Assembly (NCBI GenBank): GCA_030295235.1 | Contig: AP026128.1 | Span: 558,001 to 622,000 of the forward strand | DNA: 64,000 bases | Direction of reading: 5' to 3' | Origin: Fistulifera solaris | Taxonomy: Eukaryota; Bacillariophyta; Bacillariophyceae; Naviculales; Stauroneidaceae | Part shown: positions 22,918 through 28,856 of the stretch, one piece after another | How the letters are laid out: every line of letters begins with the position of its first letter | Numbering within the stretch: position 1 is the first letter of the stretch | Notes under the pieces: model-generated | The model's input: only the letters and a program-made list of their open reading frames with translations | What the model was told of the DNA's origin: nothing | Databases searched by the model: none | Made by a program: the position numbers and the translations under genes

Positions 22918-23948
22918 ATGACAAACCCGTTGTTAGGTATGTTAACAAATTCCATTTTGCTGCAACATTCATCCTCGCCCATGAGAAATCCTGCTCGGCA
23001 TTATTATTTGTATCGCCGCTGACACCCTCCTTCTTTGTAGGCAAGCGAATTTCTCTCGTTTCCAAGAAAAATATTCGTTACGAAGGTGTCTTGTATTCTA
23101 TCAATGAACAAAATGCTACGGTAGCGTTGCAAAACGTCAAAACTTTCGGGACGGAGGGTCGTGAATTGGCCGAAGAAGGATGCATTTTTGTAGCTCCTGC
23201 CGATACAGTACATCCCTATCTTCTCTTTCGTGGACAAGATATTAAAGATTTGCATGTACATGAACAGCCAGCCGAGGAGCAACCGACACAGACGACGGAG
23301 CCGACTCCTACTGTCCCAGCAGTGAAAGAAGAACCCAAGCCCCCTGTCGCAACAACAAAGCCACCGGCAGCACAACCAAGCAACCCTGCGAAACCACCAC
23401 AACCCACGCAGCCGACGAAGACGACTAGTGAGAATGCTGGACGAGGAGGAGAAGGCCGAGGAAATAACAACAATCGCCGCGCACGAAACAGCAAGGCTGC
23501 TCCCGGGACGGGTGCGAGTTTGCTAAATCGCACGGCTCGTGGTGTAGTAGGAGACACCGCTACCCCGCAGGGAGAATTCGACTTTCAATCCAGCTTGGAA
23601 AAATTTAAAGAGCAGAGTGACGATAACGATGAACCAATCGCGGAAACGGCTTACGAGAAGGACGACTTTTTCGACTCGATCTCGTGTGATGCTCTCGACA
23701 AGCAATCTGGAACGGACAATCGATTGAAAGGAGCAGAAGAGCGTCGTTTGAATACAGAGACCTTTGGTGCGGTGGCTTTGAACACGCAGAGCCGAAGACG
23801 GGGCGGTATGAATGGACGCGGAGGCCGAGGACGTGGTGGTGGACGTGAAGGTCGAGGCAGCAGCACAACCGGAAGAGGTCGCGGCGGGCGTGGAGGCCGC
23901 GCCGGTGGAAGAGGCCGGGGACGTGGACGCGCTTTCACGTCGGAATAA
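22918..23948 (+). CDS. LSM14: LSM14/Scd6-type P-body protein
   Basis: Exon 1 (22918-22936) codes only MTNPLLG. After a 104-nt intron exon 2 (23041-23948) continues KRISLVSKKNIRYEGVLYSI, the Lsm14 N-terminal domain, with FGTEGR and YLLFRGQDIKDL. A Pro/Thr/Gln linker follows, then the FDF motif (GEFDFQSSLEKF), the FFD box (YEKDDFFDSISCDAL), the TFG box (LNTETFG) and RGG repeats to the end. This is the complete layout of LSM14/Trailer hitch/Scd6, which binds DDX6 helicase and decapping factors and represses translation in cytoplasmic P-bodies; RGG motifs bind RNA and are arginine-methylated in the family. No frame break. Confidence 0.95.
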
Positions 23949-24808
23949 AAAGAAAGGCAATAATGCTGCAAGCGGGGGCGCTTCTTGTGTTGCGGAAATC
24001 CTTGCTTGATTAGGCCACACTTAACTCTAGATATCATCTTGCTATTCGTTTTTCACAACTTGATTCCCTGTCTTTCACCGCTGTCGTTGTTGCATGCTTG
24101 ACTCGATTGATAAAAGTTTTGGCTTGCTTTCCTTTCGATGTTCCTTCAGTTCACGATTCTTTCAGACGATGCGCTTTTCTAATTCGACAAGTATTTCCAT
24201 GTGGCACTTTAAAAGGATGGATTTAAAGTTTTTTTTGATTCTGACAAAGATGTCGCTGCTAAGGACATATAAAATTTTTACGTCCTTAGCCGCTGCTCCT
24301 TGCTAAAGTTCATTATTTCGAAATATTAGGAAATAGATCCAGCTCATTCATGACTGAAATGCAGTCGCGGATACTTACACGGCGAAAATTTTACTCCGTA
24401 TTCGTTATCTGCGCTTCATTTTATTGCTGTCGATCTCTCGTATATTTATTTGTTGTTTCATTTGTTTGTCGTTTTCTGGCAAGGCCGAAGAGTGTTGGAA
24501 AAGCCTGGGGTAGAGGCGTGTTCATTAGGTTGCAAGATTTGTTGCTGCTATATTCTTTTCGGCAGCAATATTGACGATCTTATATTGTGCCTTTCAAGAT
24601 CGTAGCACCTACGAAAAGCACAAAATACCTCCCAACAATGCCAGGGATTACGCGAACAAGAAGACATTTTATATTCACTTCTTTAATCATGATTTTGGGA
24701 TTCTCACGCCACGTGGCGAGTTGGAGCCAAACGCTGACCCAGTCGAGCTTCACGCAATCCATGAGACTCGTCCGGCGGCGGACGTCGTACCATCAAAGTC
24801 AAATACGG
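23949..24808. other. Spacer upstream of the glycosylase fusion
   Basis: Noncoding up to about 24560; contains the hairpin element at 24349. From 24587 the frame of the downstream glycosylase is already open, so the right part may be leader peptide or 5' UTR. Confidence 0.45.
24349..24369 (+). repeat. Dispersed hairpin element (CATGACTG type)
   Basis: CATGACTG, loop AAATG, CAGTCGCG. It lies 400 bp after LSM14. Confidence 0.75.
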
Positions 24809-24811
24809 ATG

Positions 24812-26508
24812 ATGCCCGAGGGTCCGGAAGTCCGAACTCTTGTGGATCAGTTACAAGGAGGTGTGGGGAAACGACTGGTGAATATACAGGTCTTGTCCGG
24901 TCGATATCGTCAAAATGGGCCTCCCGATGGGTTTGTCGAGTTTGCGTCTACCATTACGCGATACGTTCCGGGTGACGACAAAGTGGACCACGTCGATATT
25001 ATTCAGGAATGGAACTGCAAAGGGAAGTTCATTTATATCGTGCTGGATGATGGAAAACAGGTGCATCACAATCCTAATTTTCAAAGATCCATTTTTATTA
25101 CTTTGGGAATGACGGGAAAGTTTGTGGCAGAAAAAGTGCACCGACAGGATAGTCGGTTCGCTCGATGGTCCATGGAGCTTCTCGATTTGAACACGATGAA
25201 GACAAGTAAGATATTTTACCACGATCAAAGAAACTTTGGCACCCTCAAGTTTTGTTTGAAGCGCGCAGATCTGCAAGAGAAACTTGATTCGTTGGGACCA
25301 GACATTCTTGATAGCTATATCACTGAACAAATGTTTCTGGATATTGTGGCTGCGCAAAAGCAGGATCTTAATATTTGCAAGTTTCTCATGAATCAAACAA
25401 AAATTTCTGGCGTTGGAAACTATATCCTTGCTGAAGCGCTTTACCGAGCTATGATCGATCCTTTCGCGTCATTGCACGAAATCAACGAAAGCCGGCTGAA
25501 AAGTCTTTTCCGTGAAATTCGTACCACGGCACTGCAATCTTATCAGGCGAACGGCTTGACTCGGCAAAACGGTGGGCAATACAACACCATGGACGGTGAA
25601 CAGGGCCGATTCAGCTTTGAACTGCAATGCTATGGCAGGGAAACATGTGCGAGAGGAAAGCCTGTACTGAGAGAAATCAATGGGCCCCATGATCGAACTA
25701 TCTGGTACACGGAAGATCAACTGTTTATGCCTCGAGATTTGAGAGTGACCGGATCCGCTCAATCTCTCCAGCTGGATGATTCTTCATCCGAGCAAATGGA
25801 AGAGACTTATGTCTCGTTTGACCTCGCGGATGGGCTGACTGAGCCTAGTTGGCGAAGCGTCCTTGAAGACACATTTGAATCCGAGTCATTTAGGGCATTG
25901 AAAACATTTTTAGAAAAAGAAAGGCGGGATGGTGCAACTATCTATCCGCCGCAACAAAACATCTTTTCTGCTCTAAACAGCTGCCCGTTTGATCAAGTCA
26001 AGGTGGTCATCGTGGGGCAAGATCCTTACCATGGTCCCGGGCAAGGAAATGGTCTCGCATTCTCGGTTCGATTTGGAGTTCAACCACCCCGTCTTTGCAG
26101 AATATATTCCGCGAGGCTATGTCAGATGTTGGCATCGCGCAGCCGCTTCATGGCAACTTGGAATGTTGGGCAAAGCAAGGTGTTCTGCTTTTGAACTCGG
26201 TTCTTACGGTACGCCAAGGCGAGGCGAATAGTCATGCGAATAAAGGCTGGGAAGATTTCACTGATGTAATCATCCGACGGCTCAATGATGACCGCGAGAA
26301 TCTCGTCTTTCTTCTTTGGGGGCGTCCGGCTGCGACGAAAGCGAAATGCGTTGACGAAGGGCGTCATCATGTCATAAGAACCAGCCACCCTAGTCCACTG
26401 GGTGCTACTAAAACCAACTCGCCGTTTTTGTCGTCGAAGTGTTTCAGCAGATGCAACGAGTATCTGACTTTTGACGGTAGCGCTCCTATTGACTGGAGTG
26501 TTGTGTAA
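24812..26508 (+). CDS. Fpg/MutM-type glycosylase fused to uracil-DNA glycosylase
   Basis: One frame joins two base-excision repair enzymes. The first half is Fpg: after Met comes PEGPEVRTL, where Pro is the Schiff-base nucleophile and Glu the second catalytic residue; NCKGKFIYIVLDDG holds the conserved Lys; SGVGNYILAEALYRA is the H2TH motif. The C-terminal finger has Cys-x6-Cys (CYGRETC) but lacks the second Cys pair, like zincless plant and viral relatives. The second half, from LTEPSWRSVLEDTF, is family 1 UNG: GQDPYHGPGQGNGLAFSV, VLLLNSVLTVR, HPSPLGA. The frame breaks inside UNG at the C4 run 26087-26090 (one more C gives PPPSLQNIF); the linker between halves is unbroken. The frame is open upstream to 24587 (Met at 24638), so a processed leader is possible. 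Confidence 0.88.
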
Positions 26509-26720
26509 AATACTGGACGGACTAGGGGACTAGGCACTAAAGACATCGAGAGCCATCCTAGTTGACTGGGGGCTACTAAGACCACTTCGTCGTTTTTGTC
26601 GCCGACGTATGTCAGCAGATGCAACAAGTATCCGACATCTGACGGGGGCGTTCCAATCGGTTGAAGTGTTTTGTAAAACTGGGATGGGCTAGGGGACTTG
26701 TGACTCAAGAAAACTCGAGA
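26383..26720 (+). repeat. 168-bp tandem duplication of the UNG 3' end
   Basis: The last codons of the UNG half plus 3' flank (26383-26550) are repeated at 26551-26720 at an offset of 168 bp. The second copy starts AGCCATCCTAGTTGACTGGG against AGCCACCCTAGTCCACTGGG, and both end near CTAGGGGACT. The downstream copy has substitutions and lies after the stop. Confidence 0.85.
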
Positions 26721-27128
26721 CTCACAAGAATGTCTTGTGACTACCGTTGCGATTTTTCTTTGTGGATACAAGTTCTTGTTATTCCGATGTCCGCGATGTT
26801 GTGAGTCAACAAATTACTCAGTTTCACTTCAACAAACGAGTGATGACGGCGCCTTCTCGACGAACTTCCAAACATCGTCATTCTCATTATCACTTCTTTC
26901 TTTGACAAAGAGGTAGATCACGTTGACTTTTAAGCATTCGCTCTCGAACGAAAACGAAAACCACCTGTTTCCCAAACGCGTCAACTCTTAACTGCCAATT
27001 GTGTTCGCAACTTTGCGGAGAAAAATCGAATAGCGATATCAGCCGAAATGCGAATTGTCAATCGCATTACTTTCCATTGGACCGAATTATTGTTCTCAAT
27101 ATAAATTCAAGAATTGCATACAACAAAG
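26721..27128. other. Spacer upstream of the carotenoid oxygenase
   Basis: Noncoding, about 400 bp; probably the promoter of the downstream gene. An AATATAAATTC stretch at about 27098 could act as a TATA box; this is weak. Confidence 0.35.
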
Positions 27129-28856
27129 ATGAATCATTTGATCTGTTCCCTGCTTGTCTTTAGCTCGCTCCCTCATGGGATATTTGGCTTTCATGTGATT
27201 TCCCCTTCGATAAGAACCCCGTCGTCGCTCCAGTCGTCTGTATCTGTTTCATCGAGTCAAGCAAAGTCCCAGCCAAACGAGGCGATGCCTTGGCCACTCA
27301 ACGTTGAAAAATACGGCGAGTTCGATCAACACAATGATTGGGGTTTCGTGTATTCCTCTGTACCTCCGGAAGCTTCTTCGTCGTATGAAATTGGCGATAT
27401 TGAAGGTCAGATTCCAGCAGACTTGTCTGGGGCATACTACAAGGCAGGACCTGGAAACTTTGAGCGAGAAGGACGAAGATATGCGCACGTCCTCGACGGA
27501 GACGGATTCGTAGCGGCTTTTCACTTTGACAACGGAAAGGCTCGATACACAGGTCGCTTTGTGGAGACAGAATATTTTGTCCACGAGTCACTGGAAGACA
27601 AAATCAAATATCGTAATGTCTTTGGAACTCAGCGCTCTGGCAGCATACTCAAGAATGCATTCGACTTGGTTCTCAAGAATGTCGCTAACACGAATGTGGT
27701 GAAATGGGGCGGACGGTTATTCGCGTTATGGGAGGCAGGTCGTCCCTACGAGCTAGACCCGGATACTCTGGAAACATTGAAGCAAGCAGAGGATGGGCCC
27801 TATGAGGGCCTTGGCACAGATGCAAGGATCAGAGGTATCACAGTTGATCATGGTGGTCAAATTGATAAGCTCATGGGCGTAGGACGTGCATTTACAGCAC
27901 ATCCTCATATCCTCGATGATGACACGATGGTCGCATTCAAAGCAGCCACCAGCGTGACAGACAAGAAATCCTGCTTAGAGTTCTTGGAATACAACAAAAA
28001 CTGGGAAGTGAAAAAATCAGTTGATTACTCGTTTGATGTTGGACCGCCACCACACGATTTCAGCATTTCAGAGATCTACTACTGCTTCTTCGAGAACCCG
28101 TTCGGTGCCATGGACAACGTCCCGTACTTGTTCGGCGTCAAAGCCCCGACACAAATAATGCAGCTTCTGCTCCGTCGACCAGCTATTTTGCACTTGGTAC
28201 CGCGACATTCATCTGCAAAAGCCATGACGGTGGAAGTCGCGCCCTACTTTAATATTCACAATGTTCCGGAAGCAATTGAAAGAGACGGGAAACTTTACTT
28301 GTATTCTAACGGATGGGATTTGAATGATCGACGATTTTTCCCAGATTCCAAGGATTCTGTTCCTTTCCTCGGCTCGTGGGGCGGTCTTTACCCAGATTTC
28401 ATAAATGGCGTCGTTCCTCCGAGTTTCCTGTACGAAACAGTGGTGGATTTGCAGTCCGAGACGACGGTTAGTCATAAAGAAGTTGCACCGGGAGTAGTCA
28501 TGGAGTTCCCTGTTTCGGATCCAAACAACTCGGAGGTTGTGTATTGTACAGTTGCCGCTACCGACTACACATCTTTGCCTGGAACCGGATTGTGTAAAAT
28601 GAATGTCAAGACGTCGGAAGTGGAGTGCTGGTGGGCCGAAAACAAGGTATTCACACACGAAGTTACTCCAGTTTCGAAGCTGAATGGCGAGGCTGGGTGC
28701 TGGCTTCTTACCCTTTTTTACGATTCTGGCAAGAAGCGTACATCCCTGGCCATTTTCGACAGCGAGAAATTCCACGAAGGCCCAGTCTGCCGATTGCATT
28801 TGAAACATCATTTGAGTTATGGTCTTCATGGGTCCTTTTCGTCGTCCTTGAATTAA
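27129..28856 (+). CDS. Carotenoid cleavage dioxygenase (RPE65 family), plastid-targeted
   Basis: Intact exon of 575 residues. The N-terminus MNHLICSLLVFSSLPHGIFG then F looks like a signal peptide with the Phe needed at the transit-peptide start in diatoms, so plastid location is inferred. The core starts IPADLSGAYYKAGPGNFE, with HVLDGDGFVAAFHF. Four iron-binding His are visible: FTAHPHIL, PPHDFSI, FNIHNVPEA and the C-terminal YGLHGSF. The family cleaves carotenoids or apocarotenoids with O2 on Fe(II) to aldehydes or ketones. The cleaved bond cannot be told. The residue usually flanking the third His (Phe-His-x-x-Asn) reads FNIHNVP, a small variation. Confidence 0.92.
   Translation: MNHLICSLLVFSSLPHGIFGFHVISPSIRTPSSLQSSVSVSSSQAKSQPNEAMPWPLNVEKYGEFDQHNDWGFVYSSVPPEASSSYEIGDIEGQIPADLSGAYYKAGPGNFEREGRRYAHVLDGDGFVAAFHFDNGKARYTGRFVETEYFVHESLEDKIKYRNVFGTQRSGSILKNAFDLVLKNVANTNVVKWGGRLFALWEAGRPYELDPDTLETLKQAEDGPYEGLGTDARIRGITVDHGGQIDKLMGVGRAFTAHPHILDDDTMVAFKAATSVTDKKSCLEFLEYNKNWEVKKSVDYSFDVGPPPHDFSISEIYYCFFENPFGAMDNVPYLFGVKAPTQIMQLLLRRPAILHLVPRHSSAKAMTVEVAPYFNIHNVPEAIERDGKLYLYSNGWDLNDRRFFPDSKDSVPFLGSWGGLYPDFINGVVPPSFLYETVVDLQSETTVSHKEVAPGVVMEFPVSDPNNSEVVYCTVAATDYTSLPGTGLCKMNVKTSEVECWWAENKVFTHEVTPVSKLNGEAGCWLLTLFYDSGKKRTSLAIFDSEKFHEGPVCRLHLKHHLSYGLHGSFSSSLN

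Follow-up and report, generated by a model that had tools for sequence, protein, structure and literature searches.

A conserved diatom fusion of a predicted Nei1-type glycosylase/AP lyase with a family 1 uracil-DNA glycosylase

A single protein of the diatom Fistulifera solaris joins an H2TH-family DNA glycosylase to a family 1 uracil-DNA glycosylase (UNG). The fusion is real, and is present both in the window (the whole stretch of DNA analysed here, 64,000 nucleotides, positions 558001–622000 of contig C13 in a 51.7 Mb assembly of 61 contigs) and in its sister-chromosome copy. Base-excision repair is normally a relay of separate proteins that pass on hazardous abasic sites; were one natural protein to combine a uracil remover with an abasic lyase, intramolecular hand-over, and the organelle in which it occurs, would become accessible to experiment. 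Judged from sequence, the fusion, its conservation, its family assignment and its intact catalytic residues are secure, and we consider it fairly probable that the protein is a conserved diatom base-excision repair enzyme with two active sites, likely plastid, and a natural counterpart of the USER reagent. If this is true, it would tell how light- and oxidant-exposed diatom plastid DNA stays intact, it would mean that a giant-virus-type repair enzyme is working in a major algal group, and it would offer a one-piece USER-type tool.

The gene lies on the + strand of the window. The frame that contains PEGPEVRT has no stop between 24575 and 26194 and runs through the UNG motif GQDPYHG at 26015–26035, so that, as a preliminary description of this DNA had held, one frame spans both an H2TH-family glycosylase and a family 1 UNG. 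The remainder of UNG is in a different frame, with its stop at 26506–26508. The site of the break is a C run (26087–26090) within UNG and away from the junction, which is independent of it, also as first described. All Pfam matches were above cut-off, with Fapy_DNA_glyco and H2TH in the first ORF piece and UDG in the second. A probable bipartite plastid presequence, hydrophobic then basic, occupies 24638–24808 and is followed by a Met-Met pair (24809–24814), the predicted Nei1-type glycosylase/AP lyase half (24812–25726), a linker (25727–25828) and the UNG half (about 25829 to 26508). The linker, previously put at about 30 residues and unbroken, has 34 codons in the open frame. In-frame ATGs are found at 24638, 24689, 24761 and 24809, while the codon at 24812 is that of the Met adjoining the catalytic Pro, with the same frame extending 5′ of it as the putative presequence.

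Excerpts of the published description of F. solaris present it as an allodiploid diatom. The homeologous copy of the fusion gene, on contig C14, is a single open frame of 622 codons with 89% DNA identity to the window. The window gene is also represented intact among public protein records, as P0003 (606 aa, ‘uracil-DNA glycosylase [Fistulifera solaris]’), in which the first 467 residues are identical to one frame of the window and the last 139 to the other. Because the homeolog is open and the public record intact, the frame break probably arose in assembly; a very recent loss is the alternative. The homeolog dN/dS of UNG is low on both sides of the break (0.151 before, 0.072 after), indicating that the UNG half of the window copy was under selection until recent times. 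In the same assembly, a stand-alone UNG copy (L004, contig C15) is internally out of frame while its partner (L002, contig C16) is open, which fits indel errors in the assembly.

The preliminary description knew of no such fusion elsewhere; it is in fact widespread in diatoms. A homologue search with the intact homeolog as the query, restricted to proteins of 0.55–1.75 times the query length, gave 315 matches, of which 120 were listed. H2TH (PF06831) and UDG (PF03167) were both detected in 120 of these 120, and PF01149 in 113; a search for proteins with both Fpg_N/H2TH and UDG had been proposed in the preliminary description. The seven listed homologues in which PF01149 was not detected are P0053, P0089, P0110, P0112, P0117, P0118 and P0121. 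The named sources among the listed homologues are diatoms throughout: F. solaris, Cylindrotheca closterium, Cylindrotheca fusiformis, Nitzschia inconspicua, Stephanodiscus triporus, Thalassiosira exigua, Thalassiosira profunda, Conticribra weissflogii, Mayamaea pseudoterrestris and a Bacillariaceae assembly, together with Leptocylindrus danicus, Minutocellus polymorphus and Asterionellopsis glacialis, which were identified by taxid.

Transcriptome sets supply six of the 120 listed entries (P0027, P0062, P0065, P0082, P0095 and P0110). Five of them span from PEGPE to the UNG motif; P0110 is without an N-terminus and begins at the H2TH motif. The MMETSP transcriptome sets are presumably RNA data, and entries that span both halves therefore place the halves on one mRNA. 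A stop in the linker or transcripts split between the halves had been named as grounds for doubt, and the joined frame is carried by the homeolog, P0003, the 120 listed homologues and the transcriptome entries. Database names of the listed homologues are mostly ‘uracil-DNA glycosylase’ or ‘hypothetical protein’, and only the metagenome label of P0068 names both activities; a single-activity name conceals half of the fusion protein. A literature search over titles and the starts of abstracts found no description of the fusion. One listed homologue, P0085 (1011 residues), additionally carries PF03372, which we take to be the endonuclease/exonuclease/phosphatase family that includes AP endonucleases; it is perhaps a triple repair fusion, or a merged gene model.

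Both active sites are conserved. We take Pro1 and Glu2 of the first half, and the UNG residues given below, to be catalytic. In the alignment of the 120 listed homologues, Pro1 and Glu2 were each kept in 110 of 110 rows (10 rows are gapped there), the hairpin Lys in 118 of 119, the H2TH Asn in all 120 and the finger Arg, assigned by motif, in 119 of 120. In UNG, the Asp of GQDPYH, the Tyr, the Phe, the pocket Asn and the His of HPSP (in the window, HPSPLG at 26386–26403) were each found in 120 of the 120. Roles for the hairpin Lys and the finger Arg are given in excerpts of PMC7139703. In P0111 the UNG motif is interrupted between GQ and DPY by a 21-residue insert, perhaps an unspliced intron.

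Conservation is concentrated in the two halves. Columns conserved at 80% or more made up 133 of 306 in the first half and 118 of 219 in UNG, against 4 of 40 in the linker and 0 of 44 in the leader. Between the homeologs, dN/dS was 0.063 for the first half, 0.32 for the leader and 0.57 for the linker. By these ratios, purifying selection acts on both halves, and the linker is weakly constrained. In the homologues the linker measures 37–100 residues (median 54) and is rich in Ser, Asp, Thr and Glu.

The first half had been assigned to Fpg/MutM, the remover of oxidised purines. We reject this assignment, and the 8-oxoG reading that went with it, on the structure match, the tree and the missing zinc-finger pattern. 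The best solved-structure match of the first half was mimivirus Nei1 (MvNei1, 3a45) at 86.8 bits, followed by Tth MutM (55.8), AtFPG (about 43.5), NEIL1 (33) and E. coli Nei (27.8); bacterial MutM chains (55.8 to 41 bits) thus score above both NEIL1 and E. coli Nei. MvNei1 and the giant-virus Nei1 proteins share with the fused half the MPEGPEV start, the SGRY and RNFGT motifs and the H2TH motif (GVGNYIL at 25409–25429 in the window), and differ from it in being stand-alone proteins. The four-Cys zinc-finger pattern was present in 0 of the 120 listed fusions, the same test being positive in E. coli MutM and Nei. In the window the place of this finger is taken by HDRTIWY (25688–25708), a zincless finger with the motif-assigned DNA-binding Arg. 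A search of solved structures with 35 residues of the finger as the query gave no match.

Scores against family models give neither name. TIGR00577 (Fpg, cut-off 203.3) scored three fusions at 116.2, 112.5 and 99.9 bits, and NF007763 (endonuclease VIII, cut-off 252) scored them at 54.2, 57.8 and 58.6 bits. Because both sets of scores are under the cut-offs, neither the Fpg nor the endonuclease VIII name is earned, although by model score the first half is closer to Fpg than to E. coli Nei (99.9–116.2 vs 54.2–58.6). The Fpg cut-off is in itself undecisive for eukaryotes, because the plant-type FPG of F. solaris likewise falls under it (107.6 bits). Furthermore, Met, Arg and Phe at three sites, which we take to be the void-filling residues of Fpg, are kept in 119, 120 and 119 of the 120 listed fusions, and would speak for some Fpg-like behaviour.

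A tree of the H2TH proteins was made with 73 rows, among which E. coli provides the one MutM row and human NEIL1 was left out. The 23 fused rows fall on one side of a branch with 94/96 support. Their sister is a group (100/91; both jointly 99/96) of six rows without UNG, including one from Triparma strigata. MvNei1, as part of the nearest outside group, joins this ochrophyte group at a moderate 90/87, with other viral rows around it and E. coli Nei farther out. A 100/97 branch separates the fused half from E. coli MutM, the plant FPG and the F. solaris FPG gene on contig C40; plant-type FPG (AtFPG, 3twl) is of the same superfamily and across that branch. Excerpts of PMC7139703 describe zincless fingers in hNeil1 and MvNei1, state that Nei-type enzymes favour oxidised pyrimidines, and name bacterial Fpg as the sole group that excises 8-oxoG. 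On its nearest structure, its zincless finger and its position in the tree, the first half is classed as an MvNei1-type enzyme. Its main substrate is unlikely to be 8-oxoG, because the half is zincless and groups with MvNei1 and giant-virus proteins.

The second half is by its scores a family 1 UNG. It matches the solved UNG of Bacillus subtilis (3zoq) with 238 bits, and the protein P0001 was above the cut-offs of both UNG models (NF003589, 293.7 vs 223; TIGR00628, 250.3 vs 185.75), as is the UNG half of the intact homeolog for NCBIfam UNG models. It has all UNG motifs in common with the family 1 enzymes of B. subtilis, E. coli and human, but unlike them it is the C-terminal half of a two-enzyme protein. 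A UNG tree was made from 15 fused rows and 24 separate ones. The fused rows do not form a clade of their own in it; they share an 89/90 group with the stand-alone F. solaris UNG and 7 of the 24 separate rows, and the oomycete UNGs are outside this group. Some of these seven separate rows may be pieces of fusions from short contigs. Release of a UNG-only product from an inner start was also considered and is judged unlikely. A Met occurs in the linker of 99 of the 120 listed homologues, but within the last 30 residues before UNG in only 36, so there is no conserved inner start.

H2TH enzymes attack through the amino group of an N-terminal proline, and for this reason any leader must be removed or skipped. 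Residues in front of (M)MPEGPE are present in 77 of the 120 listed rows; a further 19 begin with MMPEGPE and 13 with MPEGPE (32 are thus annotated leaderless), and 11 are without the PEGPE string. Met-Met precedes the Pro in 74 of the 74 fusions that have at least 14 upstream residues. The same holds for 70 of another 71 records, among which are many fragments (P0111 is placed there through its insert). A loose motif, RR[ST]x[IP][TV], lies upstream of the Met-Met. The leaders were scored by a crude motif test (not SignalP or ASAFind) that asks for an AxA|[FWYL]-like site after a hydrophobic core. There were 68 distinct fusion leaders, of which 52 passed and 16 failed; shuffled leaders passed at 27.6%, with a maximum of 29 of 68 across 200 shuffled sets. 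Sites of this kind include VVAFSMN (P0025), SSALALPL (P0071) and ASAYSYVN (P0076). Acidic residues make up 1.1% of the fusion leaders and basic residues 14.6%. In F. solaris, the leader from 24638 passes the crude test (hydropathy 2.7, site VASW), while leaders from the NCBI starts have weak cores (0.92 from 24689, and 0.81). The start at 24638 is not open in the homeolog, which supports only the later start MIFGF.

These features resemble those of diatom plastid presequences. As excerpts of PMC3774753 and PMC4329603 describe them, Phe, sometimes Tyr, Trp or Leu, stands right after the signal peptide, the transit peptide is poor in acidic residues, and Met is removed after its cleavage; PMC3774753 infers such Met removal in 18 of 63 plastid proteins and gives Leu as preferred at −2. 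In the fusions Ile, Pro or Leu occupies the position four before the Pro and two before the first Met, a pattern that would fit a cut before the Met-Met only in part. A single Met excision, moreover, would act poorly on Met-Met-Pro. The comparison lends some support to the leader as a probable plastid presequence, and with it to the earlier suggestion of an organelle location.

The protein would then work as follows. Its layout is leader, Nei1-type zincless glycosylase/AP lyase, flexible linker, family 1 UNG. Plastid import would remove the leader, and a cut at or beside the Met-Met would free the nucleophilic Pro; because the first half needs this free N-terminal Pro, a UNG partner is possible only on its C-terminal side. 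UNG would excise uracil to give an abasic site, while the tethered first half would excise oxidised bases independently and could also open the abasic sites of UNG by β,δ-elimination within one molecule, giving a one-nucleotide gap on which polymerase and ligase would act. The preliminary description had not drawn this link between the product of UNG and the lyase of the first half. In excerpts of PMC7139703 the Fpg/Nei family is a β,δ-lyase on abasic sites, and in excerpts of PMC6883067 USER is UDG plus endonuclease VIII. The fusion, as far as its sequence allows one to expect, combines the same uracil excision and β,δ-lyase activity. USER differs in being a mix of two proteins, whereas the fusion is one natural protein, with an MvNei1-type rather than an E. 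coli Nei-type half.

Several other readings of the same data have to be weighed. That assembly or annotation has merged two adjacent genes has a negligible chance of being correct: the frame break in the window copy, and the broken stand-alone UNG L004 in the same assembly, are what such an artefact would lean on, but the break is inside UNG rather than at the junction, and the joined frame recurs in the homeolog, the public record, the 120 listed homologues and the transcriptomes. Much more weight is due to the idea that two independent glycosylases are merely tethered and co-delivered, with the abasic sites made by UNG going to AP endonucleases. The linker is long, variable and weakly constrained, as for a passive tether, and both active sites are kept, as this idea would also have it. 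The product of UNG, however, is the abasic site that the family of the first half opens (excerpts of PMC7139703 and PMC6883067), making some coupling hard to avoid, and the link is kept in every diatom lineage named among the listed homologues. We hold simple tethering to be less likely than coupled action. It is very improbable that the first half is a catalytically silent DNA-binding clamp with its Pro buried under the leader. A leader does stand before the Pro in 77 of the 120 listed homologues; against this, there is hardly any variation at the Pro, Glu, Lys and Arg, dN/dS of the half is 0.063, and a clamp has no need of Pro1 and Glu2.

A further alternative concerns location. The protein might be nuclear or cytosolic, or occur in several compartments, where a start at the Met of 24812 would give a free Pro after Met removal and longer forms would be targeted. 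Met directly precedes the Pro in 110 of the 110 listed rows that reach it, and the rows annotated from MPEGPE (13 of 120) and MMPEGPE (19 of 120) would be such short forms. Yet 77 of the 120 have upstream residues, and gene callers pick starts without evidence. Signal-peptide-like, acid-poor leaders are, moreover, common in the fusions and present in the unfused P0163 and P0157, and the first Met of the pair is left unexplained. We regard this alternative as unlikely. A more specific form of the plastid reading can be offered tentatively: in the precursor UNG would work while the lyase is blocked until the Met-Met cut frees the Pro, and would hence be silent in the cytosol; and the enzyme would have a single origin at the base of the diatoms, from a leadered Nei1-type lyase of giant-virus affinity (separate in bolidophytes) and a stramenopile UNG.

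As to that origin, the first half is found alone in Triparma strigata (P0151, 309 aa, with Fapy_DNA_glyco and H2TH only). Triparma belongs to the Bolidophyceae, close kin of diatoms. It is also alone in the transcriptome protein P0163 (356 aa), which has a leader ending in MMPEGPE and no UDG. Both belong to the group that is sister to the fused half, from which they differ by the absence of UNG. The UNG half appears to lie near stramenopile (oomycete) UNGs. One fusion at the base of the diatoms, after the leader was in place, would be the simplest course. Inheritance of the fusion from a giant virus or a bacterium was rejected on a motif scan of 155 loci. A scan of viral contigs gave 136 relatives, of which 80 were kept, 18 of these on contigs longer than 100 kb, as expected of giant viruses. 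A UNG motif (GQDPY or GQDPYH, in open frames of at least 80–120 residues) was found in the matched frame or locus in 0 of 155 cases (80 viral, 75 bacterial); because this is a motif test, divergent or interrupted UNGs would escape it. Absence of the fusion outside diatoms is accordingly a statement about these 155 loci and the names in the lists. Two giant-virus-type Nei1 genes (L095 and L096) are on contigs binned as Rickettsiales and Rhodobacteraceae and group with a viral row; these contigs are perhaps misbinned viral ones.

The genome of F. solaris also encodes the separate enzymes. Besides the stand-alone UNG pair (L004 and L002), there is a stand-alone plant-type FPG pair beginning MPELPEVE, L007 on contig C40 and L005 on contig C41. 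The C40 copy matches Arabidopsis FPG (3twl) with 121 bits; the C41 copy is split across two frames, perhaps by an indel error or an intron. The preliminary description had one protein covering both main kinds of spontaneous base damage. The two halves are indeed joined, but because of these separate FPG and UNG pairs the fusion is not the sole cover for either kind.

The neighbours of the fusion gene in the window are an Scd6/LSM14 domain protein upstream (23037–23945) and an RPE65 family protein downstream (27123–28853). Just downstream of the fusion gene, at 26551–26676, lies a decayed partial tandem copy of the UNG tail (126 bp, 80% identity, with an internal stop), and the homeolog has a similar decayed UNG-tail copy at C14:564123–564222 (79%).
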